Below, piece after piece: positions 1 to 23,148 of a stretch of 24,059 nucleotides of DNA (its first letter is position 1; every line of letters begins with the position of its first letter). Location: positions 1 to 24,059 of IMG/VR virus record IMGVR_UViG_3300026263_000179; one strand, given 5' to 3'. The notes beneath the pieces were generated by a model that was not told where the DNA came from, made no database searches, and saw only the letters and a list, made by a program, of their open reading frames with translations. Source of the DNA: a virus. Both the position numbers and the translations under genes were made by a program.

Positions 1-315
1 TTGATATTATTATACACAACTTCGGCGAGTGCAATCAGCAAACTCTTAATGTATCATAATCCTTATTGTTCTTATTGCGTTAAGTTTATTAAAGAAGTCG
101 CAATAGATTTTAAGCACGATAAAGTAGATTTAAGAATAGTAGTCAGAAATGAAGAACCTTTTTGGTTTACTATGGCAATTAACGAAAATAGAATTAAACC
201 TATAAGAGGTACACCTACTTTTATACTATGGGATGGTGAGAACGAAATAGCACGACTCGTTGGTTATTCAAGTAAAGAAAGTTTTTATAATAGATTGGAT
301 GAAATATTGAAATGA
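1..315 (+). CDS. Thioredoxin-fold protein, 5' end cut by window edge
   Basis: The frame is open from the first base, so the true start may lie upstream. The visible part holds a thioredoxin-type redox motif C-S-Y-C (residues 23 and 26 counted from base 1) after a beta strand, and a G-T-P-T-F segment (Pro72) in the place of the family's cis-proline. The residues before the first strand end in an A-S-A-like sequence. This could be the end of a signal peptide, which would make it a periplasmic thiol-disulfide protein like the SoxW-type thioredoxins; that part is inference. It overlaps the next gene by ATGA, so it is translated with the metabolic block that follows. A dithiol reductase fits beside Fe-S and tetrapyrrole genes, but the substrate is unknown. 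The TTG at base 1 could also be the real start. Confidence 0.8.
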   Translation: MILLYTTSASAISKLLMYHNPYCSYCVKFIKEVAIDFKHDKVDLRIVVRNEEPFWFTMAINENRIKPIRGTPTFILWDGENEIARLVGYSSKESFYNRLDEILK

Positions 316-857
316 AGAATGTAGAGTTATATAAACAATATCATAATAAGCATAAAGAATATGGTAATGGTGGAGCATTAAAATTTTACTTGAACCACAT
401 CGTGGATCTCGTTAAAGATACAAAAGCAAAATCAATATTAGATTATGGTTGTGGTAAAGCAGAAGGTTATCTAAAACATAATCATCACAAACATTGGGGT
501 ATACTACCCGAGTTGTATGACCCAGCAGTTGTACCATTTACTAGATTGCCCGAAGGCACCTATGATGGTGTTATATCGTTTGATGTATTAGAACATATAC
601 CAGAAGAAGAAATTGCTGAAACACTTAAAACAATAATTGACAAAGCAAACAAATTTGTTTTTCTAGGTATTGCTACTGATCCTTCTAAAACGATATTAGC
701 AAATGGAGAGAATGCACATTGCACAATTAAACCACTTGAATGGTGGGTAGAACAAGTTAATAAAATTGAAAAGAAAGTATATACACATATACTAACTACT
801 GGAAAATATGAAGGTTATAAAATATTAAACGATGATTTATATTTTAAAATGATATGA
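312..857 (+). CDS. Class I SAM-dependent methyltransferase
   Basis: This 181-residue protein carries the SAM-binding glycine motif I-L-D-Y-G-C-G (residues 42-48) and the post-motif stretch Y-D-G-V-I-S-F-D-V-L-E-H-I-P (84-97), which are hallmarks of the Methyltransf_11/23-like class I fold. The length is that of a bare catalytic domain with no target-recognition domain, so a small molecule or protein is a more likely substrate than DNA. The substrate cannot be read from the sequence. It starts inside the stop of the thioredoxin-like gene (ATGA) and its own stop overlaps the hemB-like start in the same way, so all three are translationally coupled. Its place directly before a porphobilinogen synthase is suggestive, but I see no resemblance to known tetrapyrrole methylases. 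Confidence 0.82.
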   Translation: MKNVELYKQYHNKHKEYGNGGALKFYLNHIVDLVKDTKAKSILDYGCGKAEGYLKHNHHKHWGILPELYDPAVVPFTRLPEGTYDGVISFDVLEHIPEEEIAETLKTIIDKANKFVFLGIATDPSKTILANGENAHCTIKPLEWWVEQVNKIEKKVYTHILTTGKYEGYKILNDDLYFKMI

Positions 858-1714
858 GATTAATACAACCTATATTCGCTGGAACACAAACTAAAGAAAC
901 TGGTCTTGGAGAACATAATAAAATATACAATGCTTGGAAAGAAGCAGGTGAGAGAGTAAAGAAAGATATTGATTTAGGCGTTAAAGAGTTTCTATTGTTT
1001 TATATACCTGAATTTAAGTTAGGTGAAAAATCATCTGGTTGGAGAGAAGGTGAAGGTATTGATGAACATAAGTTTGACCAAGTGTGTGTTACCGCTGCTA
1101 GTCTTTCACAAATTATACAACCTCAATGTAGATTGATTGTAGATTTATGTTTATGTCCTTATACGCCTGATGGTCATTGTAATATTACAGGCAACCAAGA
1201 ATTAACAGACCGTTATCTTAAAGAAATGGCAAAAGGTATTTACAATGCTTCTGGTGCTACAATAGCGCCAAGTGATTGTGGAGAGAATACGGTTAAGAAT
1301 ATTAAATCTTTAAAAGATGGTAATATAGAAGTGATGAGTTATAGTACAAAATTTCGTTCTAGTTTCTATGTTGGTTGGAGAGATACATTAGGAATTAAAC
1401 CAGGTATACATAGACCATATCAATTAGATGTAGAAACTAAAAAAGGTGATATACTTGCAAGAGCAGTTAAGTATAGAGAAGATGGTGCTGATGAATTACT
1501 AATTAAACCTGGTATGACAAGTATAGATTTAATTAGTGATATAAAACATTTTAATTATAATACTCCTGTTGGTGTATATCAAACAAGTGGCGAATGGTTA
1601 GGTATTCATACAGAAGATAATTTAAAAGAAACATATCAAGTATTCAAAAGAGCAGGCGCTGACTTTATGATAAGCTACGGTGCTAGGAACTTGATAAATA
1701 TTATAGATGAATAA
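854..1714 (+). CDS. hemB: Porphobilinogen synthase (delta-aminolevulinic acid dehydratase), phage-borne short form
   Basis: HemB condenses two 5-aminolevulinate molecules to porphobilinogen, the first common step to heme, siroheme and B12 rings. The family signatures are clear: the metal-binding D-L-C-L-C-x-Y-T-x-D-G-H-C run (Cys99, Cys101, Cys109); the first Schiff-base lysine in M-S-Y-S-T-K (Lys166); F-Y-x-x-W-R-D (Arg176); H-R-P-Y-Q (Arg187, Gln190); the second Schiff-base lysine in L-L-I-K-P-G (Lys218); Y-Q-T-S-G-E (242-247); and a late tyrosine in I-S-Y-G-A-R (Tyr275). All the catalytic residues I know for the family are therefore present. At 286 residues it is shorter than the usual 320-340. 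It begins at the first barrel strand (L-I-Q-P-I-F), so the N-terminal arm that links subunits in octamers is missing. The ATGA overlap with the preceding stop fixes the start, so this is not a truncated reading. It is probably active, but with altered assembly. Confidence 0.92.
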   Translation: MRLIQPIFAGTQTKETGLGEHNKIYNAWKEAGERVKKDIDLGVKEFLLFYIPEFKLGEKSSGWREGEGIDEHKFDQVCVTAASLSQIIQPQCRLIVDLCLCPYTPDGHCNITGNQELTDRYLKEMAKGIYNASGATIAPSDCGENTVKNIKSLKDGNIEVMSYSTKFRSSFYVGWRDTLGIKPGIHRPYQLDVETKKGDILARAVKYREDGADELLIKPGMTSIDLISDIKHFNYNTPVGVYQTSGEWLGIHTEDNLKETYQVFKRAGADFMISYGARNLINIIDE

Positions 1715-2722: not shown

Positions 2723-3472
2723 ATGACAAAATTTAGAGAAGAAACAATCATACCTCAAATGGTACATCCAGATATAAATGGAGAAGTACTATACCCATTT
2801 GGTCCACCAATCTATCGTTGTGAAATGGATACAAACATAATTGATATGTTGATTGAAGAAGGACAACGAACAAGAAACGATAAAGATAAAGACCATAGAC
2901 CTAAACTTGCAGGTAATATGAAAAAAGGAACTAGTATTCAATATCCTGCAGGACCTAATAACGATATTAGAAATAAAGCTGATAAAGCAATAGTACAAAA
3001 AGTTTTTGAATTTTTTGAAATACTACAATCTAATAATGGACCTCAATGGCCTAATGTACAAAAAACGATGATGGGACAATCTGGTGGTATGGGTGCATTA
3101 AGATTACAACAACTATGGATAAACTTTCAACACGCAGGTGACTTTAATCCAGTACACGACCACGGTGGTTTGTTTAGCTTTGTTATGTATGGAGAAATAG
3201 ATGATGAAATATTTGAAAAGGATATTCCTATTAGCAATAGTCAACACGCAGGTCAAATAGTATTTCAATATGGAGAAAGAATAACAGATTTACAAAGTAA
3301 TAGTTTTTCTATTAAACCATATAAAGGATTAATGTTTGTTTTTCCTGCTGGTTTAAATCATTATGTACCACCATATTATAAAGACTTTGAGAGAATAAGT
3401 ATAAGTGGTAATTATGTATTAGAACAAGTGGACCAATCAAAAATGAAAAATATGAAGTTAGATATAAAATGA
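2723..3472 (+). CDS. 2OG-Fe(II) dioxygenase superfamily protein
   Basis: This 249-residue protein has the double-stranded beta-helix pattern of the phage and marine 2OG-Fe(II) oxygenases (2OG-FeII_Oxy_5-like). The key segment is N-P-V-H-D-H-G-G-L-F-S-F-V (residues 142-154), with His145 and His147 as candidate iron ligands. It is followed by P-A-G-L-N-H (His213) and by R-I-S-I-S-G-N (Arg224, likely 2OG carboxylate anchor). Members hydroxylate proteins or small molecules using 2-oxoglutarate and O2; the substrate here is unknown. Its ATGA overlap with the Nfu-like gene ties it to the Fe-S block. Similar genes are common in T4-like marine phages. Confidence 0.82.
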   Translation: MTKFREETIIPQMVHPDINGEVLYPFGPPIYRCEMDTNIIDMLIEEGQRTRNDKDKDHRPKLAGNMKKGTSIQYPAGPNNDIRNKADKAIVQKVFEFFEILQSNNGPQWPNVQKTMMGQSGGMGALRLQQLWINFQHAGDFNPVHDHGGLFSFVMYGEIDDEIFEKDIPISNSQHAGQIVFQYGERITDLQSNSFSIKPYKGLMFVFPAGLNHYVPPYYKDFERISISGNYVLEQVDQSKMKNMKLDIK

Positions 3473-3762
3473 TAGAAGATAGAACAGAAGAAGAAATAAT
3501 AAAAAATATAAAACATATATTAGATGAGAAAGTAGCTCCATCAGTTGCCGCTCACAAAGGCAAGATTAATTTTATCTCATATAAAGATGGAGTATTAAAA
3601 TTACAGATGGCAGGTTCTTGTAGTGGGTGTCGTATGTCTCAATTAACTTTGAAACAAGGTGTTGAGAGTATGATGAGACACTATGTACCTGAAGTTCAGG
3701 CCATAGAGTCTGAAGATGATAAGAGTGCTAAAGACCAAGGATATACACCTTGGGCAGTTTAA
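3469..3762 (+). CDS. Nfu-type Fe-S scaffold/carrier (NifU C-terminal domain)
   Basis: This 97-residue protein is a stand-alone NifU C-terminal domain. An N-terminal helix (E-E-I-I-K-N-I-K-H-I-L) is followed by two strands, the second being G-V-L-K-L-Q-M-A-G-S, and then the cluster-binding C-S-G-C (Cys51, Cys54) and the helix M-S-Q-L-T-L-K-Q-G-V-E. This is the signature of NfuA-type proteins, which form dimers that hold a [4Fe-4S] cluster between two CxxC motifs and deliver it to apo-enzymes. The degenerate A-type N-terminal domain of bacterial NfuA is absent, but the IscA-like protein encoded upstream could supply that function in trans (inference). It is the last gene of the block; its stop is directly adjacent to the stop of the convergent minus-strand cassette. 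Confidence 0.92.
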   Translation: MIEDRTEEEIIKNIKHILDEKVAPSVAAHKGKINFISYKDGVLKLQMAGSCSGCRMSQLTLKQGVESMMRHYVPEVQAIESEDDKSAKDQGYTPWAV

Positions 3763-3969
3763 TTATTTCTGTTCTTTATACATTTCTTGCGAATACAAAG
3801 ATAATATAAACATAGTTATTCCTAACAATGTAAATACACCACACGCCAACCAATCATTATTCATTGGTATGCCTTTATATCCACCATCTATTGCACCAGC
3901 GGCAGCAACTAAACATAGTGTACCTCCTACTGACAATGCGATAGTCATATATTCTATTAGTTTTTTCAT
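3763..3969 (-). CDS. Small two-pass membrane protein
   Basis: This 68-residue protein has two hydrophobic segments (about residues 8-26 and 40-60) separated by a short polar loop (G-G-Y-K-G-I-P-M-N-N-D-W). A good ribosome-binding site, AAGGAGA, precedes the ATG at 3969. It is the last gene of the four-gene minus-strand cassette, and its stop abuts the stop of the plus-strand Nfu gene with no room for a terminator. The longer frame on the opposite strand here lacks a ribosome-binding site and is not credible. The function is unknown; the size and topology would also suit a holin or superinfection-exclusion protein, but nothing decides this. Confidence 0.62.
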   Translation of the reverse strand: MKKLIEYMTIALSVGGTLCLVAAAGAIDGGYKGIPMNNDWLACGVFTLLGITMFILSLYSQEMYKEQK

Positions 3970-5225: not shown

Positions 5226-5435
5226 ATGGAAGGCGAATTTAAAGTAAGAATTAAAAATAGAATTTTTACATATAACAACACAAATGATATTCCAAACGAA
5301 ATTGGAGCAGTAATTTCATTTAAACCTGATTATCCAGAACCTCCTCATACTGAAGAACAACATAATTACATATCAACCTTTGAAAGTAAATTAAAACAAT
5401 TAATGGAGAGAGAATGCCTGCGGTTACGAGGATAG
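5226..5435 (+). CDS. Unknown small protein upstream of the PAAR gene
   Basis: This 69-residue protein begins at an ATG preceded by GAGAGGA at good spacing. A longer in-frame reading from 5148 would overlap the lipoprotein gene and has no ribosome-binding site, so I reject it. The N-terminal half looks like two beta strands (F-K-V-R-I-K-N-R-I-F-T-Y) and the C-terminal half like a helix (Y-I-S-T-F-E-S-K-L-K-Q-L-M). It overlaps the PAAR start by 22 bases, so it is likely part of the late structural transcript. I recognise no family. Confidence 0.6.
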   Translation: MEGEFKVRIKNRIFTYNNTNDIPNEIGAVISFKPDYPEPPHTEEQHNYISTFESKLKQLMERECLRLRG

Positions 5436-5701
5436 GAGACGCTGATGTTACCCATTGTTCTGGTATGACTAGAGCAGTAGGTAGTGCAAATGTATTTTGC
5501 AACGGTATTGCTGTTAGTAGACAAGGTGATGTTAATACAGGACACAAATATCCAGGTGTACCTTGTCCATCACACGCTCAACCAATAGCAGTAGGTTCAA
5601 CTACCGTATTTGTTAATGGTGTAGGTTGTGGAAGAATAGGTGACGCAATATCAGGATGTACTTCTGTGGCAGCAGGAAGTCCTAATGTGTTTGCTGGTTA
5701 G
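5414..5701 (+). CDS. PAAR-motif tail spike tip protein
   Basis: This 95-residue protein has the repeating glycine-rich beta pattern of PAAR proteins (R-I-G-D-A near the front, G-S-A-N-V-F-C-N-G, G-S-T-T-V-F-V-N-G, G-R-I-G-D-A-I-S-G-C, G-S-P-N-V-F-A-G). PAAR proteins form the pointed cone that caps the central spike of contractile tails; the T4 equivalent is gp5.4. In known members a metal ion near the tip is held by three His and one Cys. This protein has exactly three His (14, 44, 54) and a Cys at 82 in the usual place, plus Cys15, 29, 51 and 72, which is more cysteine than usual. An internal ribosome-binding site (GGAGAGAGA) precedes the ATG. It lies just before the baseplate genes, as in other T4-like phages. 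Confidence 0.92.
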   Translation: MPAVTRIGDADVTHCSGMTRAVGSANVFCNGIAVSRQGDVNTGHKYPGVPCPSHAQPIAVGSTTVFVNGVGCGRIGDAISGCTSVAAGSPNVFAG

Positions 5702-5703
5702 TG

Positions 5704-5711
5704 TATAAATA
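5704..5711 (+). promoter_or_regulatory. T4-type late promoter (TATAAATA) before gp25
   Basis: This is an exact match to the T4 late consensus. Transcription should begin about six bases past the box, near 5717, only about three bases before the gp25 ATG at 5720. Such a transcript would be almost leaderless, so gp25 may rely on read-through mRNA, or the promoter may mainly serve the genes downstream. Confidence 0.65.
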
Positions 5712-5719
5712 TAAGTGTT

Positions 5720-6145
5720 ATGGCATTTTACGATTCAACTAGTTTAAAAAATAAAGATAGAGTAAATCGGTTATATTCTGATTTAGACTTGGATTTTACC
5801 CGAAATCCTGTTACCTCGGATATAGTTAAATTGCAAGATGTGGATGCTGTAAAAAGAAGTGTAAAGAATTTAATACAAACTAATCATTATGAGAGACCAT
5901 TTCATCCAGAAATAGGTAGTGATGTAAGAGGATTGTTATTTGAAAATATGACACCTCTAACTGCGTTAAACTTGGAAAGAAAAGTTATAGAAGTTTTAAC
6001 TAACTTTGAACCAAGAGCAAAGATAGTAAATGTTATTGCTCAACCACAAGAAGACGCAAACAGATACCATATACAAATCAGTTTCTATGTTATTGGTATT
6101 TCAACTCCAGTAGTAGTAGAAACATATTTACAAAGGTTAAGATAA
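5720..6145 (+). CDS. 25: Baseplate wedge protein gp25
   Basis: This 141-residue protein has the length and sequence signatures of T4 gp25 / the GPW-gp25 family: D-L-D-L-D-F-T-R-N-P near the front, H-P-E-I-G-S-D-V-R-G-L-L-F-E-N in the middle, and a C-terminal alternating strand region (I-Q-I-S-F-Y-V-I-G). In T4, gp25 joins the gp6-gp7 wedge and is part of the sheath-initiation platform. It is followed by a small unknown gene and then gp6, an arrangement also seen in marine T4-like phages. Confidence 0.95.
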   Translation: MAFYDSTSLKNKDRVNRLYSDLDLDFTRNPVTSDIVKLQDVDAVKRSVKNLIQTNHYERPFHPEIGSDVRGLLFENMTPLTALNLERKVIEVLTNFEPRAKIVNVIAQPQEDANRYHIQISFYVIGISTPVVVETYLQRLR

Positions 6146-6146
6146 T

Positions 6147-6374
6147 ATGGCGTGGGTAGATGTACCAGGAAGTAATTCAATATGGCAATATGAAAATACT
6201 GCTACGGCAGCAAATACATATCCAGATTCAGCAGATGGCGCTAATTCAGTAATCGCTAGTGGAATTAGAACATATACTAAACCAGGTGGTGGTACGGTAC
6301 AAGTTTATATAAGATGTAGAAAAAAAGGCACAACGGTAGAACGAGGTGAGTTATCAAAAACTTACTTTGATTAA
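6147..6374 (+). CDS. Small beta-rich protein between gp25 and gp6
   Basis: This 75-residue Gly/Thr-rich protein starts with M-A-W-V-D-V-P-G-S-N-S-I-W-Q-Y-E-N and ends in a basic beta hairpin (V-Q-V-Y-I-R-C-R-K-K-G-T-T-V). It begins one base after the gp25 stop. The sequence is probably all beta. Its constant place between two wedge genes suggests a minor virion component, but I cannot name it. Confidence 0.6.
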   Translation: MAWVDVPGSNSIWQYENTATAANTYPDSADGANSVIASGIRTYTKPGGGTVQVYIRCRKKGTTVERGELSKTYFD

Positions 6375-6390
6375 TAATTAGGAAAGAATA

Positions 6391-8244
6391 ATGGCAAGCA
6401 CCAAACTAGATATTTCGGAATTAGATTTTGACCAGATAAAAGCAAACTTAAAAGTATTTTTACAAAATCAAGCAGAATTTTCAGATTATAATTTTGAAGG
6501 TTCTGGTTTTTCTGTACTATTAGATACACTAGCATACAATACACACTATCTAGGTTTCAATGCTAATATGTTAGCAAATGAAATGTATTTAGATTCTGCT
6601 GATGTAAGAGCTAATGTAGTTTCACTTGCTAAAATGTTAGGTTATACTCCTTCTTCAGCAAAAGCTCCAACTGCTTCAGTTGACATTACCGTTAATGACG
6701 CAACAGGAACAACTTTGACAATGAATAAAGGTCAAACCTTTACAACTGCTGTTGATGGTACTGCTTACAACTATATTACTAATGATGAAATTACAATTAC
6801 ACCTGTTGATGGTGTATTTAAGTTTTCAAATGTAACCTTATATGAAGGAACACCAATTACATATAGATATACGGTTGATACGCAAGATCCCGACCAAAAG
6901 TTTTTAATACCTAGTGTTAATGCTGATACAACAACACTAAAAATAAAAGTTCAAACAAGTTTAACAGAAACAACTCAAACAACATATACTTCGGTTACAG
7001 GTTTAACAAAATTAACTGATACTTCTACCGTTTACTTTTTAAATGAAACAGAAACAGGTAAGTATTGTGTAACCTTTGGTGATGGTGTACTTGGTAAAAA
7101 ATTATCAACAGGTAATATTGTTATAATGGAATATATTGTTACCAATAAAGCAGAATCAAATGGTGCTAAGACATTTTCACCAGCAGGTAACATTGGAATG
7201 TTTTCAAACATATCAGTTTCAACTACTTCTGTATCGCAAGGTGGTAGTGAATCAGAAACAAAAGAGAGTATTAGATTTAATGCTCCTTTACAATACTCAG
7301 CGCAAGATAGAGCAGTAACCACTTCTGATTATGAAACAAAAGTACAATCTTTATATCCAAATGCTATTGCTGTAAGTGCTTGGGGTGGTGAAGATGATGA
7401 AACACCAATTTATGGTGTTGTTAAAATTGCAATTAAGGCAGCTAGTGGTTCTACTTTAACTACTCAAACAAAAGCAGACATTGTTAATAAACTAAAAGAA
7501 TATAATGTTGCTTCGGTTACTCCACAAATAGTTGATCCTGAAACAACAAGTATAATATTATCTACAACTGCAAAATTTAATTCTTCAGCAACTACTAAAG
7601 ACGCTGAAACATTAAAAGCAAATATTACAAGCAACTTAATTGCTTATAATGCTTCTACACTTCAAAAATTTGATAGTGTATTCAGACATAGTAAAGTTTC
7701 TACATTAATTGATAATGTTGATAGTTCAATATTGTCAAACATAACAACTTTAAAGATAAGAAAAGATTTAACACCTTCTATTGGTAGTTCATTAAAGTAT
7801 AATGTATATTTTAGAAACGCATTATACAATCCACATATGGGACATAACGCAACAGCAGGTGGTATACTATCTTCAACAGGTTTTAAAGTAAATGGTTATA
7901 GTGAAGAACAATTTTTAGATGATGATGGTAATGGAATAGTAAGAAGATATTATTTGTCAGGTGCAACAAGAGTTTATTCAAACTCAACGCAAGGTACAAT
8001 AGATTATACGACAGGTGCTATAACAATTAATTCATTACAGGTGACATCAATTTCAAATATAAGAGGAAGTGCTTCAAGTGTTATAGAATTAACCGTGCAA
8101 CCTGATTCCAAAGACATAGTACCAGTAAGAGACCAAATAATAGAAATAGATATTGCTAATTCTAATATTGCGGTTGAAAAAGATACTTTTGTTGCTGGAA
8201 GTTCAGACGCTGGAGTTGGTTACACTACAACAAGCTCTTACTAA
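6391..8244 (+). CDS. 6: Baseplate wedge protein gp6 (Baseplate J family)
   Basis: This 617-residue protein is close to T4 gp6 (660) in length and follows gp25 as in other T4-like phages. The N-terminus (L-D-F-D-Q-I-K-A-N-L-K-V-F-L-Q) and the segment S-V-L-L-D-T-L-A-Y-N-T-H-Y are typical of gp6. The core segment D-R-A-V-T-T-S-D-Y-E-T-K-V (about residues 304-316) and the following W-G-G-E-D-D-E-T-P are Baseplate_J hallmarks. In T4, gp6 dimers link neighbouring wedges into the inner ring that drives baseplate switching. AGGAAAG precedes the ATG. Confidence 0.95.
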   Translation: MASTKLDISELDFDQIKANLKVFLQNQAEFSDYNFEGSGFSVLLDTLAYNTHYLGFNANMLANEMYLDSADVRANVVSLAKMLGYTPSSAKAPTASVDITVNDATGTTLTMNKGQTFTTAVDGTAYNYITNDEITITPVDGVFKFSNVTLYEGTPITYRYTVDTQDPDQKFLIPSVNADTTTLKIKVQTSLTETTQTTYTSVTGLTKLTDTSTVYFLNETETGKYCVTFGDGVLGKKLSTGNIVIMEYIVTNKAESNGAKTFSPAGNIGMFSNISVSTTSVSQGGSESETKESIRFNAPLQYSAQDRAVTTSDYETKVQSLYPNAIAVSAWGGEDDETPIYGVVKIAIKAASGSTLTTQTKADIVNKLKEYNVASVTPQIVDPETTSIILSTTAKFNSSATTKDAETLKANITSNLIAYNASTLQKFDSVFRHSKVSTLIDNVDSSILSNITTLKIRKDLTPSIGSSLKYNVYFRNALYNPHMGHNATAGGILSSTGFKVNGYSEEQFLDDDGNGIVRRYYLSGATRVYSNSTQGTIDYTTGAITINSLQVTSISNIRGSASSVIELTVQPDSKDIVPVRDQIIEIDIANSNIAVEKDTFVAGSSDAGVGYTTTSSY

Positions 8245-8247
8245 TAA

Positions 8248-10803
8248 ATGGCAAAGTTTACTAAAAAGATTACCAGTCTTATTCAAGGTCAGGTACCTGA
8301 ATTTGTAATATCAGACCATCCTCAATTTGTAGAATTTCTAAAAGCATATTTTACATTTATGGAATGTGCTGAATTAGGTATTACTGAATCTCAATCAACA
8401 GAAGGTATCTTATTAGAAACAGAAACAGGTCAATCTAACAAATTATTGTTGGACGCAAGTAGACTTGGTTCAGAAGCAACTCAAATAGACGCTGGCGATA
8501 AAGTTTTACAAGAAACTTCCACTTATGGAAAATTTACTTTCGGCGAAATCATAAAAGGTCAAACTTCTAATGCTCAAACTGCTATATTAGCAGAAGATTT
8601 AAAAAATAATAGATTATTCATAAATGCAAATGATAAATTTATAGATGGTGAGACAATTGTTGGTTTAACTTCTGGTGCTTCAGGTATTGCAGGAAGTTAT
8701 AGACCAAATCCAGTAAAATCAATCCAAGAATTATTAAACTTTAGGGATCCCGATAAAGTTATACAACATTTCTTATCTCAATTTAGAAACGAAGTCTTAA
8801 ATACAATTCCAGAAGACTTACACGGTGATATTAACAAAAGAGAATTAATTAAAAGAGTAAAAACTTTATATCGTACTAAAGGGACTGCAAAAGGACACGA
8901 ATTATTTTTTAGATTGTTATTTGGTGAGAATTCAGAAATATTTTATCCAAAAGAACAAATGTTAAGAGTATCAGATGGAGAGTTTACTTCTAACCAAGTT
9001 TTAAGAACAATTAATAGTGTAGGTAACACAGGAGATTTAGTTGGTAGACAAATTACAGGTTTAACTTCTGGTGCAACTGCAATTATAGAAAATTTAAATA
9101 GATTCCAAATTGGAGACAAACTTGTATCAGAATTATTATTAAACCAAGATAGTATTGTTGGAACTTTTCAAGTTAATGAAATAGTTAGAGGAACAAAAAC
9201 AGATACCGATGATGTTTACATTAAAGCTGAGGTTACTGGTGTTCCTGGAACATTTACAATAACAAATGATGGTGCAAACTATATTAAAGGAGACCAAGTT
9301 AAACTTTCAGGTGGTGGACAAGGTTCAATCTGTCAAGTTGGAGAAGTTGGTGGTTCTGGAATAACAAATTTCTATATTAACGCTTCTGGTACACAATATC
9401 AAATAGGTGACCAATTAGTTTTTGATAATGCAAATACAAATGGTGGTGGAGCTGTTGCTGAAGTTGCTGTTGCTAATGGAGCAATTGGTAATGAAACAGG
9501 TGACGATGGACATATACTTTTTGAAACTGCAACAAGCAGATATGATATTAACCCAGGCAGTAAAATAGTTTTAGAAAATGGAGTAGGTGATATTACAGAT
9601 ATAAGATTAATTAATAGTGGTTCTGGTTATACAAAAACACCTTTGGTTACTATTAATAGTTTAAATGGAGTTAACGCTGAAGTACTTTCATATGGAGACG
9701 AAATTGGAAAATTATTAGGAATTGATATAATAGAAAGTGGTCGTTCACACGAACAAGCGTCAACACCTCCAGCAGTTCAGTTTATAGAATCAATTATTGC
9801 GTTAAGTACAAATGGAAACTATGTAGTTGGCGAAACAATTACTGGTTCTTCTTCTAGTGCAACTGGTGTTGTAGTAAGTTGGGATGCTAATAGAAAATTA
9901 TTAAGATTAAAAGATAGAAATGCTAATTCCTTTTCTGTAGATGAAACTATAACAGGTGGTCTTTCAGGTACAACTGGTTTAATGGGAAAAACAGACCCAG
10001 CAGTTGCAACGATTGATGTTGTTGGATTAGCAACAAGTGAAGGTAGATATGTTTCAGAAGACGGACACTTATCAGAAACAACAATGAAGATACAAGATAG
10101 TTTATACTATCAGGACTTCTCATATGTTGTTAAAGTAGGTCGTACTATTAATGAATGGCGAGACGCATTTAAAAAGACAATGCACCCTGCTGGTTTCTAC
10201 TTTACAGGACAAGTTAATATTGAATTAAAATTAGATAACAGAATTAAAATGCCTGTTGTTGGTAGGGTTACTGGTATTACTTCAAGTCCTTGGATTACAT
10301 TAATGAACACATTGTTTGGTAGTGTATTTGGTAGAAGATTAGGAACAAAAACTGATGGTTCAACTTTAAGAAGTAATCCACTTGAAGGAAAAGCTGCTGA
10401 TGTTGCCCAAGGAGGTAAATCTCCTTTCTCAACAACAACTAGGGATGTTACCTTAACACAAACTCCAATATCGTATTCTTTTCAATTTAAACCATTTTAT
10501 TATTTCAGAACAATCAATACAAACTTCGGTTCTGTATATGCTGGACCAAGATTAAGAGAATTTGATAGAAGATTCCAAGGTATGATTAATACAAGTGCTA
10601 TGAATTGGGCAAGAGTAAAAGATTTGAGAGTAATAGGTTCTAATACGCCTGCTGATGGAACAGAAGTTCAATTTGGCGATTTAGCAACTATAGCAAAGAC
10701 TTATATTACTTTGCCTGTTGAGGTTTTAGTGCCTCAAGGCAAGTTTAGTAATACAAGTAAGAAATTTAGTAGTGGTACAGCTACTTTTGACGCAAGCTCA
10801 TAA
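8248..10803 (+). CDS. Large baseplate wedge protein, probable gp7 counterpart
   Basis: This 851-residue protein lies between gp6 and gp8, where T4 has gp7. The N-terminal domain (1-60) is followed by two beta modules with the pattern G-E-x-I-x-G-x-T-S-x-A (about 96-148). Next comes a helical core (155-240) with Y-R-T-K-G-T-A-K-G-H-E-L-F-F-R-L-L-F-G (208-226), which resembles the R-x-K-G-T signature of P2 gpI-type tail proteins, the simple relatives of gp7. Further G-E-T-I-T-G-type modules (about 262-281, 525-542, 562-580) and G-x-G-Y/N-x-G repeats (335-510) follow. The C-terminus has a conserved H-P-A-G-F-Y-F-T-G (646-654). It starts three bases after gp6 stops. The structural role is near certain; the exact identity with gp7 is inferred from position and that core motif. 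Confidence 0.72.
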   Translation: MAKFTKKITSLIQGQVPEFVISDHPQFVEFLKAYFTFMECAELGITESQSTEGILLETETGQSNKLLLDASRLGSEATQIDAGDKVLQETSTYGKFTFGEIIKGQTSNAQTAILAEDLKNNRLFINANDKFIDGETIVGLTSGASGIAGSYRPNPVKSIQELLNFRDPDKVIQHFLSQFRNEVLNTIPEDLHGDINKRELIKRVKTLYRTKGTAKGHELFFRLLFGENSEIFYPKEQMLRVSDGEFTSNQVLRTINSVGNTGDLVGRQITGLTSGATAIIENLNRFQIGDKLVSELLLNQDSIVGTFQVNEIVRGTKTDTDDVYIKAEVTGVPGTFTITNDGANYIKGDQVKLSGGGQGSICQVGEVGGSGITNFYINASGTQYQIGDQLVFDNANTNGGGAVAEVAVANGAIGNETGDDGHILFETATSRYDINPGSKIVLENGVGDITDIRLINSGSGYTKTPLVTINSLNGVNAEVLSYGDEIGKLLGIDIIESGRSHEQASTPPAVQFIESIIALSTNGNYVVGETITGSSSSATGVVVSWDANRKLLRLKDRNANSFSVDETITGGLSGTTGLMGKTDPAVATIDVVGLATSEGRYVSEDGHLSETTMKIQDSLYYQDFSYVVKVGRTINEWRDAFKKTMHPAGFYFTGQVNIELKLDNRIKMPVVGRVTGITSSPWITLMNTLFGSVFGRRLGTKTDGSTLRSNPLEGKAADVAQGGKSPFSTTTRDVTLTQTPISYSFQFKPFYYFRTINTNFGSVYAGPRLREFDRRFQGMINTSAMNWARVKDLRVIGSNTPADGTEVQFGDLATIAKTYITLPVEVLVPQGKFSNTSKKFSSGTATFDASS

Positions 10804-21631: not shown

Positions 21632-22111
21632 ATGGACGAACAAACTCAATTGTGGATTAAACGATTAAAAGACGAAATCCAAAATCATAACAGATACGAA
21701 GCAAGACAACTATTTTACATAGATGATAATGGACTTGACCGAGAGGTTAAAGAACATATGACTTATGGAGAATGGTTAAGAGAATTTAATAGATTTAAAG
21801 TTATTAAGGTGGAAGGTTTAGAAGATGTCTCTTGGTTAAGAGAAGTTTTAGATGAAGTAGTAAAGAATATCACAGGTAAGACTAGACAAGATATTCATTT
21901 ATTTGTGAATCAAAAACCAGGTGTTAGTTTCAAATCTCATAAAGACGACAAAGATGTTTACTTATATGTTGTAAAAGGCAAAAAGAAAGTAAATATGAAT
22001 AATGAGGTTAAACCGATATATGATGATGAAGGAATTATCATTAAACAAGGTGTTGAACACTTTGTTGAAAGTGAAGCTGATACTTGGGGGTTAAGTATTG
22101 GAGTTATATAA
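21632..22111 (+). CDS. JmjC/cupin-type putative Fe(II) oxygenase
   Basis: This 159-residue protein has the pattern of small JmjC (ROX/cupin_4) oxygenases. The stretch S-H-K-D-D-K-D-V-Y-L-Y-V-V-K-G-K-K-K-V (102-120) contains the H-x-D iron motif (His103, Asp105) followed by the family's D-V-[FY]-L...G-x-K. G-V-E-H-F-V-E-S (140-147) supplies the third ligand, His143. Known family members hydroxylate ribosomal proteins or other proteins using 2-oxoglutarate. It is shorter than bacterial ROX enzymes, with no C-terminal dimerisation domains, so a non-catalytic cupin is possible. It lies ten bases after the fibre gene and two bases before the radical SAM gene, with AGGAG before its ATG. A role in modifying virion proteins is inferred from this context. 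Confidence 0.65.
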   Translation: MDEQTQLWIKRLKDEIQNHNRYEARQLFYIDDNGLDREVKEHMTYGEWLREFNRFKVIKVEGLEDVSWLREVLDEVVKNITGKTRQDIHLFVNQKPGVSFKSHKDDKDVYLYVVKGKKKVNMNNEVKPIYDDEGIIIKQGVEHFVESEADTWGLSIGVI

Positions 22112-22113
22112 TA

Positions 22114-23148
22114 ATGAATTGGATGTTTTATGTCAAAACAACCGAAACCTGTAATCTAAATTGTAAACATTGTTTTACTTCAGGTACATCTGGACCTAAA
22201 GTATATTGGGACACAACAAAGATTATTAAATGGTTCAAAGCATTTCGCAAATTTAACTATCACAAAAACGACACAGCACATTTAGAATTTCACGGTGGTG
22301 AACCATTTTTGGTTCCTGTATCTGAAATGGATTATGTGTATGACGCAACTAAAGGATTGTGGGACAATCAATCTTATGGTGTAACCACTAATCTTTGTTT
22401 CAAATTAAAACAAGAACACATAGATTTTATGAAAGGTCCTCTTGGTGGCAGATGTGGAACATCTTGGGATCCGAAGATTCGTTTTGAGAATGAAAAACAA
22501 TTAAACTTATGGAGACGAAATGTTGCTACTTTAGTTGATGAAGGTATAACGGTTAAACTTTTTATATCAGTAACCAAAGATACAATAGCAATTGAGCCAA
22601 TTGAATTATTGAAATGGGTAAAGGATTTAGGTGTTAAAGAAATGGCACTTGAAAGATTGACAGGTAATGGTAATGCAAACTTACATCCAGAAATATTCCC
22701 ACGAAACATAGACCAAGATAAATGGTTTTTAAAAATGCACGAGCAGATGATACAATACAATGCTAGAAAGTGGTTTGAAAATGAATTTTTTGAAACTATT
22801 TACTCAAAATTTACTGCTGGAGACAATACGCAAGGAACTTTCTGTAGAGATTGTGAACAAAAACTATTTACACTAAACGCAACTGGCACAATAGGTGGTT
22901 GCCCTAATGCTGCTCCTGAATTTACTTTTGGAACGCTAGATGACCCTTTGGATGGTCTTATAAATAGTCCTAAGCGATTACACAATATAGCGTGTGAAGT
23001 GGCAAGAAACCCATTGTGTTGGGAATGTCCAGTTTTCAAGTATTGTGGTGGAGATTGTCACCAATTAGGATGGCAAGGTGATATATGTGGCGCTCCGAAA
23101 TCACTTATGAAACATTTGGCGCAAAATAGAAGTGAGGCAATATGGTAA
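22114..23148 (+). CDS. Radical SAM-SPASM enzyme, peptide/protein maturase type
   Basis: This 344-residue protein has the radical SAM motif C-N-L-N-C-K-H-C (Cys13, 17, 20), the following H-G-G-E-P (60-64), and a C-terminal SPASM domain. The SPASM signature C-x2-C-x5-C-x3-C is exact (Cys302, 305, 311, 315), with further cysteines at 244, 247, 263, 294 and 325, enough for two auxiliary [4Fe-4S] clusters as in anSME. This architecture is typical of enzymes that modify proteins or RiPP precursors (thioether links, C-C links, formylglycine). The start at ATG 22114 follows the previous stop by two bases with GGAG upstream; a TTG at 22084 would overlap the previous gene and is less likely. Its stop overlaps the start of the C-H-S-S repeat protein, the obvious candidate substrate. 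The Fe-S carriers at 2124-2450 and 3469-3762 could help to mature it. Confidence 0.9.
   Translation: MNWMFYVKTTETCNLNCKHCFTSGTSGPKVYWDTTKIIKWFKAFRKFNYHKNDTAHLEFHGGEPFLVPVSEMDYVYDATKGLWDNQSYGVTTNLCFKLKQEHIDFMKGPLGGRCGTSWDPKIRFENEKQLNLWRRNVATLVDEGITVKLFISVTKDTIAIEPIELLKWVKDLGVKEMALERLTGNGNANLHPEIFPRNIDQDKWFLKMHEQMIQYNARKWFENEFFETIYSKFTAGDNTQGTFCRDCEQKLFTLNATGTIGGCPNAAPEFTFGTLDDPLDGLINSPKRLHNIACEVARNPLCWECPVFKYCGGDCHQLGWQGDICGAPKSLMKHLAQNRSEAIW
22959..22966 (+). promoter_or_regulatory. Possible internal late promoter (TATAAATA) within the radical SAM gene
   Basis: An exact late consensus occurs inside the coding sequence, 176 bases upstream of the C-H-S-S protein gene. All the clear late promoters here lie in gaps, so this may be chance. 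If real, it would give extra transcript of the putative substrate relative to its maturase. Confidence 0.25.

Follow-up and report, generated by a model that had tools for sequence, protein, structure and literature searches.

A cassette of genes for 5-aminolevulinate synthase (ALAS), haem oxygenase (HemO) and the bilin reductase PcyX is already known in pelagiphages and freshwater phages, and ALAS and HemO encoded by phages of this kind proved active in vitro (PMC11480375). In E. coli, the viral ALAS alone led to porphyrin overflow, which phage HemO and bilin reductase did not relieve (PMC11480375). Also known are the coproporphyrinogen oxidase (hemF) and porphobilinogen deaminase (hemC) genes of 'deep ecotype' pelagimyophages (PMC7029224). 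The text of PMC11480375 is without hemB; the HemB step is added here, together with HemC, HemE and HemF in relatives. The pelagimyophages of PMC7029224 share hemF and hemC with the viruses described below and probably correspond to our lineages L031-L039, but, unlike in those viruses, hemB is not named in the main text of that study. A literature search covering open-access texts, supplementary tables aside, found no report of a viral hemB or of these hem operons.

The stretch of DNA analysed here (the window) is an IMG/VR virus record of 24,059 bases. The explanation that we favour, and hold to be quite probable, is that its ORF at 854-1714 encodes a competent Zn-dependent porphobilinogen synthase (HemB) of a T4-like (pelagimyophage-type) marine virus, which would feed viral 5-aminolevulinate (ALA) to haem and partly to bilin. 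The features of the window that bear on this explanation were as follows:

1-315, plus strand: thioredoxin-like ORF (Pfam PF13098), directly 5' of hemB in contig G005
312-857, plus strand: methyltransferase ORF (Pfam Methyltransf_23) overlapping the HemB start (ATGA), missing from G005
845-847, plus strand: in-frame TAA stop, two codons 5' of the HemB ATG, read from the sequence
854-1714, plus strand: viral HemB, Zn-type and arm-less, 286 aa with an ATG start (Pfam, AlphaFold2, PDB folds)
1148-1180, plus strand: catalytic Zn site C99, C101 and C109, equivalent to E. coli C120, C122 and C130; Cys at each in 54/54 viral sequences
1349-1351, plus strand: Schiff-base lysine K166, equivalent to E. 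coli K195; invariant, 54/54
1379-1381, plus strand: substrate/lid arginine R176, equivalent to E. coli R205; invariant, 54/54
1412-1414, plus strand: R187, one position past the E. coli R216 column; invariant in viral sequences
1505-1507, plus strand: Schiff-base lysine K218, equivalent to E. coli K247; invariant, 54/54
1586-1588, plus strand: S245, equivalent to E. coli S273; invariant, 54/54
1676-1678, plus strand: Y275, equivalent to E. coli Y312; invariant, 54/54
5414-8244, plus strand: PAAR, gp25 and gp6 baseplate genes, T4-like context (family matches, synteny)

The ORF at 854-1714 had been read from its sequence as a phage-encoded porphobilinogen synthase, and family search, fold, invariant residues and synteny bore this out: by family and fold, it is a genuine member. 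The Pfam family PF00490 (ALAD) matched residues 3-281 (E 7.9e-42, 143.9 bits, cut-off 24.6), and the solved structures matched by sequence search were all ALA dehydratases. The NCBIfam HemB equivalog PRK09283 gave 131.6 bits and its cut-off of 297 was not reached, a shortfall that matters for automatic naming but is no test of function; since the score lies so far under the cut-off, the viral HemB is divergent. No PHROGs family matched it. The AlphaFold2 model reached a pLDDT of 94 and a pTM of 0.92 using a 104-sequence alignment, while the 11 closest viral sequences as input gave a pLDDT of 44. All fold matches of the model were ALAD proteins, the best of them from human, yeast, E. coli and P. 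aeruginosa (TM 0.80-0.85). The viral protein shares the TIM-barrel of known Zn-type HemB (EC 4.2.1.24, PF00490), with TM 0.84-0.85 to 5hms (human), 1h7o (yeast) and 1b4e (E. coli), but differs from it by several loop deletions and is 25-37% identical to cellular HemBs.

The active site was examined in an alignment of the window protein and 53 distinct viral relatives (54 viral sequences), 38 cellular HemBs and an enterobacterial reference. All 54 viral sequences were identical at the equivalents of D118, C120, C122, H129, C130, S165, K195, Y201, R205, Q220, K247, S273 and Y312. The sequence-only reading was therefore right about both Schiff-base lysines, the three metal cysteines and the late tyrosine. 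Its claim of two substrate-binding arginines held for R176, which aligns with R205, but not for the R216 column, which carries H, E, V, Y or F and never Arg, the invariant R187 standing one position later. The column of E232 (E. coli full-length count), which we take to be the allosteric Mg glutamate, was occupied by R, S or K in every viral sequence. In addition, the PSDMMDGR motif was altered to PSDCQxNT, the lid was altered too, and shorter deletions, which the sequence-only reading did not mention, lie behind the metal site and within the C-terminal lid region. The dN/dS ratio was 0.10-0.42 in 13 of 14 computable pairs (0.80 in the remaining, little-diverged pair), indicating mostly purifying selection. 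Altogether, family, fold, invariant catalytic residues and dN/dS values mostly well below 1 suggest that the viral HemB is probably active.

The absence of an N-terminal arm of about 30-40 residues, also pointed out by the sequence-only reading, proved to be a trait of the whole family. The TAA at 845-847 lies in frame before the ATG, so no in-frame arm is possible in the window. The arm was gapped in all 54 viral sequences, which miss the octamer-type RRxR segment and some 30-35 residues compared with canonical HemB, and every viral relative starts at the first barrel strand, mostly with MRLIQPIF or a close variant. In the cellular sister HemB described below (L087-L089), the arm is also reduced, to an 18-residue start without the RRxR segment; arm shortening therefore probably began before viral capture, an order that is read from an unrooted tree. 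Human HemB is active as an octamer, and its hexamer, with a destabilised lid, is relatively inactive, while the R. capsulatus enzyme is highly active as a hexamer (PMC535902). By analogy with the human assembly with the unstable lid, loss of the arm could lower activity; since the R. capsulatus hexamer is highly active, arm loss alone does not predict inactivity. Having lost both the arm and the allosteric-Mg glutamate, the viral HemB would stand outside the classical octamer/hexamer switch and may form an arm-less dimer or another assembly.

In a broad scan, this HemB was encoded by at least 95 viral contigs (80 were kept, with 41-99% identity), indicating that it is not a stray gene. In a maximum-likelihood tree, the 24 viral representatives all fell into one clade (support 100/97), whose sister was the HemB of marine Alphaproteobacteria L087-L089 (support 100/97). 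Cellular relatives appeared in a genome scan with a mixed alignment but not in one with a narrow viral alignment. We also considered a derivation from the SAR11-type HemB. SAR11 genomes were recognised by an exact match in G371, taken with its relatives, to a 16S probe sequence that we assume to be a SAR11 marker. Their HemB is full-length with a Mg-type DxALDPY site, and an AU test rejected a clade of virus plus SAR11 (p 8e-5); the virus therefore does not carry a copy of the SAR11-type host gene. The streamlined marine alphaproteobacteria L087-L089 and L093 have a complete operon, hemC(D)-hemB-hemE-hemH-hemF, with the arm missing (L087-L089) or divergent (L093). The sister HemB of L087-L089 is Zn-type, its 18-residue start replacing the RRxR arm; the viral copies, in contrast, are without even this start and also without hemD and hemH. 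Judged by gene order and best matches, an L087-L089-type heme operon is a plausible source of part of the viral hem set.

The gene lies among viral genes, with gp25, gp6, gp7 and gp8 downstream of hemB. The sole DNA-level match among named phages was Pelagibacter phage Mosig EXVC030M (72% identity over baseplate genes). Other hemB contigs bear phage DNA polymerase, DnaB helicase, ribonucleotide reductase, baseplate or DNA ligase families. Viral hallmarks were weaker in G016 (ribonucleotide reductase, DNA ligase and a weak tail spike), whose close relative G015 had a baseplate hub match. Several neighbouring genes were recorded as well. IscA/ErpA-like and NifU/NfuA C-terminal domain Fe-S assembly proteins are encoded near hemB (2124-2450 and 3469-3762 of the window), suggesting an iron-cofactor theme. 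A predicted membrane protein of 68 aa (3763-3969, minus strand) is kept in L009 (9490-9696, minus strand) and G010, and the tail-gene region contains a cupin-like ORF and, after it, a radical SAM/SPASM protein (phrog_1802; 21632-23148), which may form a pair for protein or peptide modification. Elsewhere, L009 encodes ribosomal protein bL12 with both L7/L12 domains 1.4 kb downstream of hemB (10273-10635), the hemB-bearing viral contig L003 a tryptophan-halogenase-like protein (phrog_2928; 190-1746), and the 107-kb hem-operon virus G016 a membrane fatty-acid desaturase/hydroxylase-family protein (PF00487; L229 1383-2447).

Linkage to further tetrapyrrole genes was found through contig G005 (60.6 kb), which is 99.92% identical to positions 841-24059 of the window over 23,219 bp and is without the insert at about 316-840 only. 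Presence of the methyltransferase (312-857) in the window and its absence from this nearly identical contig point to a recent gene gain or loss 5' of hemB. G005 carries the following genes:

51446-52102: haem oxygenase (HemO; PF01126)
52062-52796: ferredoxin-dependent bilin reductase (PF05996)
52796-53998: 5-aminolevulinate synthase (ALAS; TIGR01821, 563 bits)

This cassette adjoins gp13 and terminase; the cassette of PMC11480375 likewise lies in T4-like pelagiphage contigs beside gp13, and the window's virus population has a cassette of that type. The link from window to cassette is the identity of the two contigs, as the window contig itself does not span both. A 268-aa ORF without Pfam match overlaps the HemO start (G005 50643-51449, L227 10643-11449) and may belong to the cassette.

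Among the viral HemB loci, 26 had another hem gene within the locus. The arrangements were hemF-hemB-hemC (L031-L037, L039), hemE-hemB-hemC (L038, L046), a hemF-hemB pair (L055/L056), a hemF-hemB-hemO operon (L057/G014) and, in twelve loci (L062, L064-L067, L070-L075, L077), hemF-hemC-hemE-hemB; overlaps of a few bases between neighbouring hem genes were common. Two long genomes carried larger sets, G010 (177 kb) with ALAS, HemB, HemC, HemF, HemO and bilin reductase, and G016 with these and HemE. In contrast, the 200-kb hemB contig G011 had no ALAS, HemC, HemE, HemF or HemO, which counts against a pathway explanation. Searches of 15 viral records detected neither HemD nor ferrochelatase, both of which must then come from the host. 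Since ALAS, HemO and bilin reductase occur in the same population and hem operons in relatives, HemB appears as a single step in a tetrapyrrole pathway carried by viruses. These genes strengthen the earlier suggestion that the enzyme could boost haem supply. That suggestion had also named sirohaem and B12 as destinations, to which nothing in the gene content points, and had contrasted the early HemB step with the late bilin steps of cyanophages, a contrast that falls away because early and late steps co-occur in these viruses.

In the pathway that we propose, viral ALAS would make 5-ALA from glycine and succinyl-CoA, and viral HemB would condense two 5-aminolevulinate molecules into porphobilinogen via its two Schiff-base lysines. 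HemC, HemE and HemF of host or virus would carry porphobilinogen onward and the host would insert iron; viral HemO would then open part of the haem, and the viral bilin reductase would reduce the product. The porphyrin overflow caused in E. coli by viral ALAS alone (PMC11480375) fits this scheme, as does the removal of a control point that would come with a separate HemB free of Mg allostery. Gene content, clade, residues, arm loss and gene linkage are shown here, while activity, assembly state, flux and benefit to the virus are inferred. We see an even chance of a wider picture, in which T4-like and other marine viruses carry a mobile, near-complete haem-to-bilin pathway (ALAS, HemB, HemC, HemE, HemF, HemO and bilin reductase) derived partly from an alphaproteobacterial heme operon. 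In this picture, only HemD, ferrochelatase and the protoporphyrinogen step would be missing or provided by the host, and HemB would be a constitutively active, arm-less form free of octamer/hexamer allostery.

An origin of hemB by host contamination or assembly chimera was rejected, and its probability is close to nil. Such contamination does occur: in INPHARED, no genuine phage with HemB, HemC, HemE or HemF was present among the matches listed (unannotated human-faecal 'Bacteriophage sp.' records aside), the matches of readable origin being bacterial contamination, and the GenBank 'phage' records OR847151, OR844993, OR851529 and CAKLQH020000030 contain bacterial HemB/HemC/HemE from host DNA. 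The viral gene, however, adjoins gp25, gp6 or gp7 in the same gp5-gp25 slot in about 30 loci from different metagenomes, its clade is monophyletic and its GC content equals that of the window (0.322 vs 0.331). A more serious alternative, which we regard as possible though somewhat doubtful, is that HemB is active and serves to draw down 5-ALA, averting photo-toxic porphyrin or ALA build-up from viral ALAS, or supplies host haemoproteins or B12, rather than bilin. The porphyrins formed in E. coli from excess ALA, unrelieved by HemO and bilin reductase (PMC11480375), agree with it, as do several hemB contigs that show no HemO. Nevertheless, the hemF-hemB-hemO operon and the HemO and bilin reductase genes of G005, G010 and G016 tie hemB to haem opening, and a HemB feeding HemC would raise rather than lower porphyrin unless later steps kept pace.

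It is improbable that the viral homologue has little or no catalytic activity of its own and instead joins host HemB or alters its behaviour, for instance as a subunit without the arm. The lost arm, the shifted second arginine, the replacement of E232 by R, S or K and the low equivalog score would fit such a role, but the invariance of all catalytic and Zn residues in the 54 sequences does not, and the hemC, hemE and hemF partners imply pathway use; mixed viral/host oligomers are also unlikely, given that host HemB of the SAR11 type is divergent and Mg-type. We consider a different reaction on an ALA-like substrate very improbable: the change of PSDMMDGR to PSDCQxNT and the modified lid speak for it, while conservation of both Schiff-base lysines and of the substrate-binding residues speaks against it, as does the linkage of hemB to ALAS and HemC, the steps immediately before and after.

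Viral tetrapyrrole genes known until now either start haem synthesis (ALAS) or degrade haem (HemO, PcyX). With a viral HemB and the HemC/HemE/HemF operons of related viruses, some viruses that infect very abundant ocean bacteria would provide several steps in a row, which would make phage use of haem testable with defined gene sets. Moreover, since the morpheein model of HemB regulation gives the arm a central role, the arm-less viral HemB constitutes a natural test of the need for the arm in catalysis.
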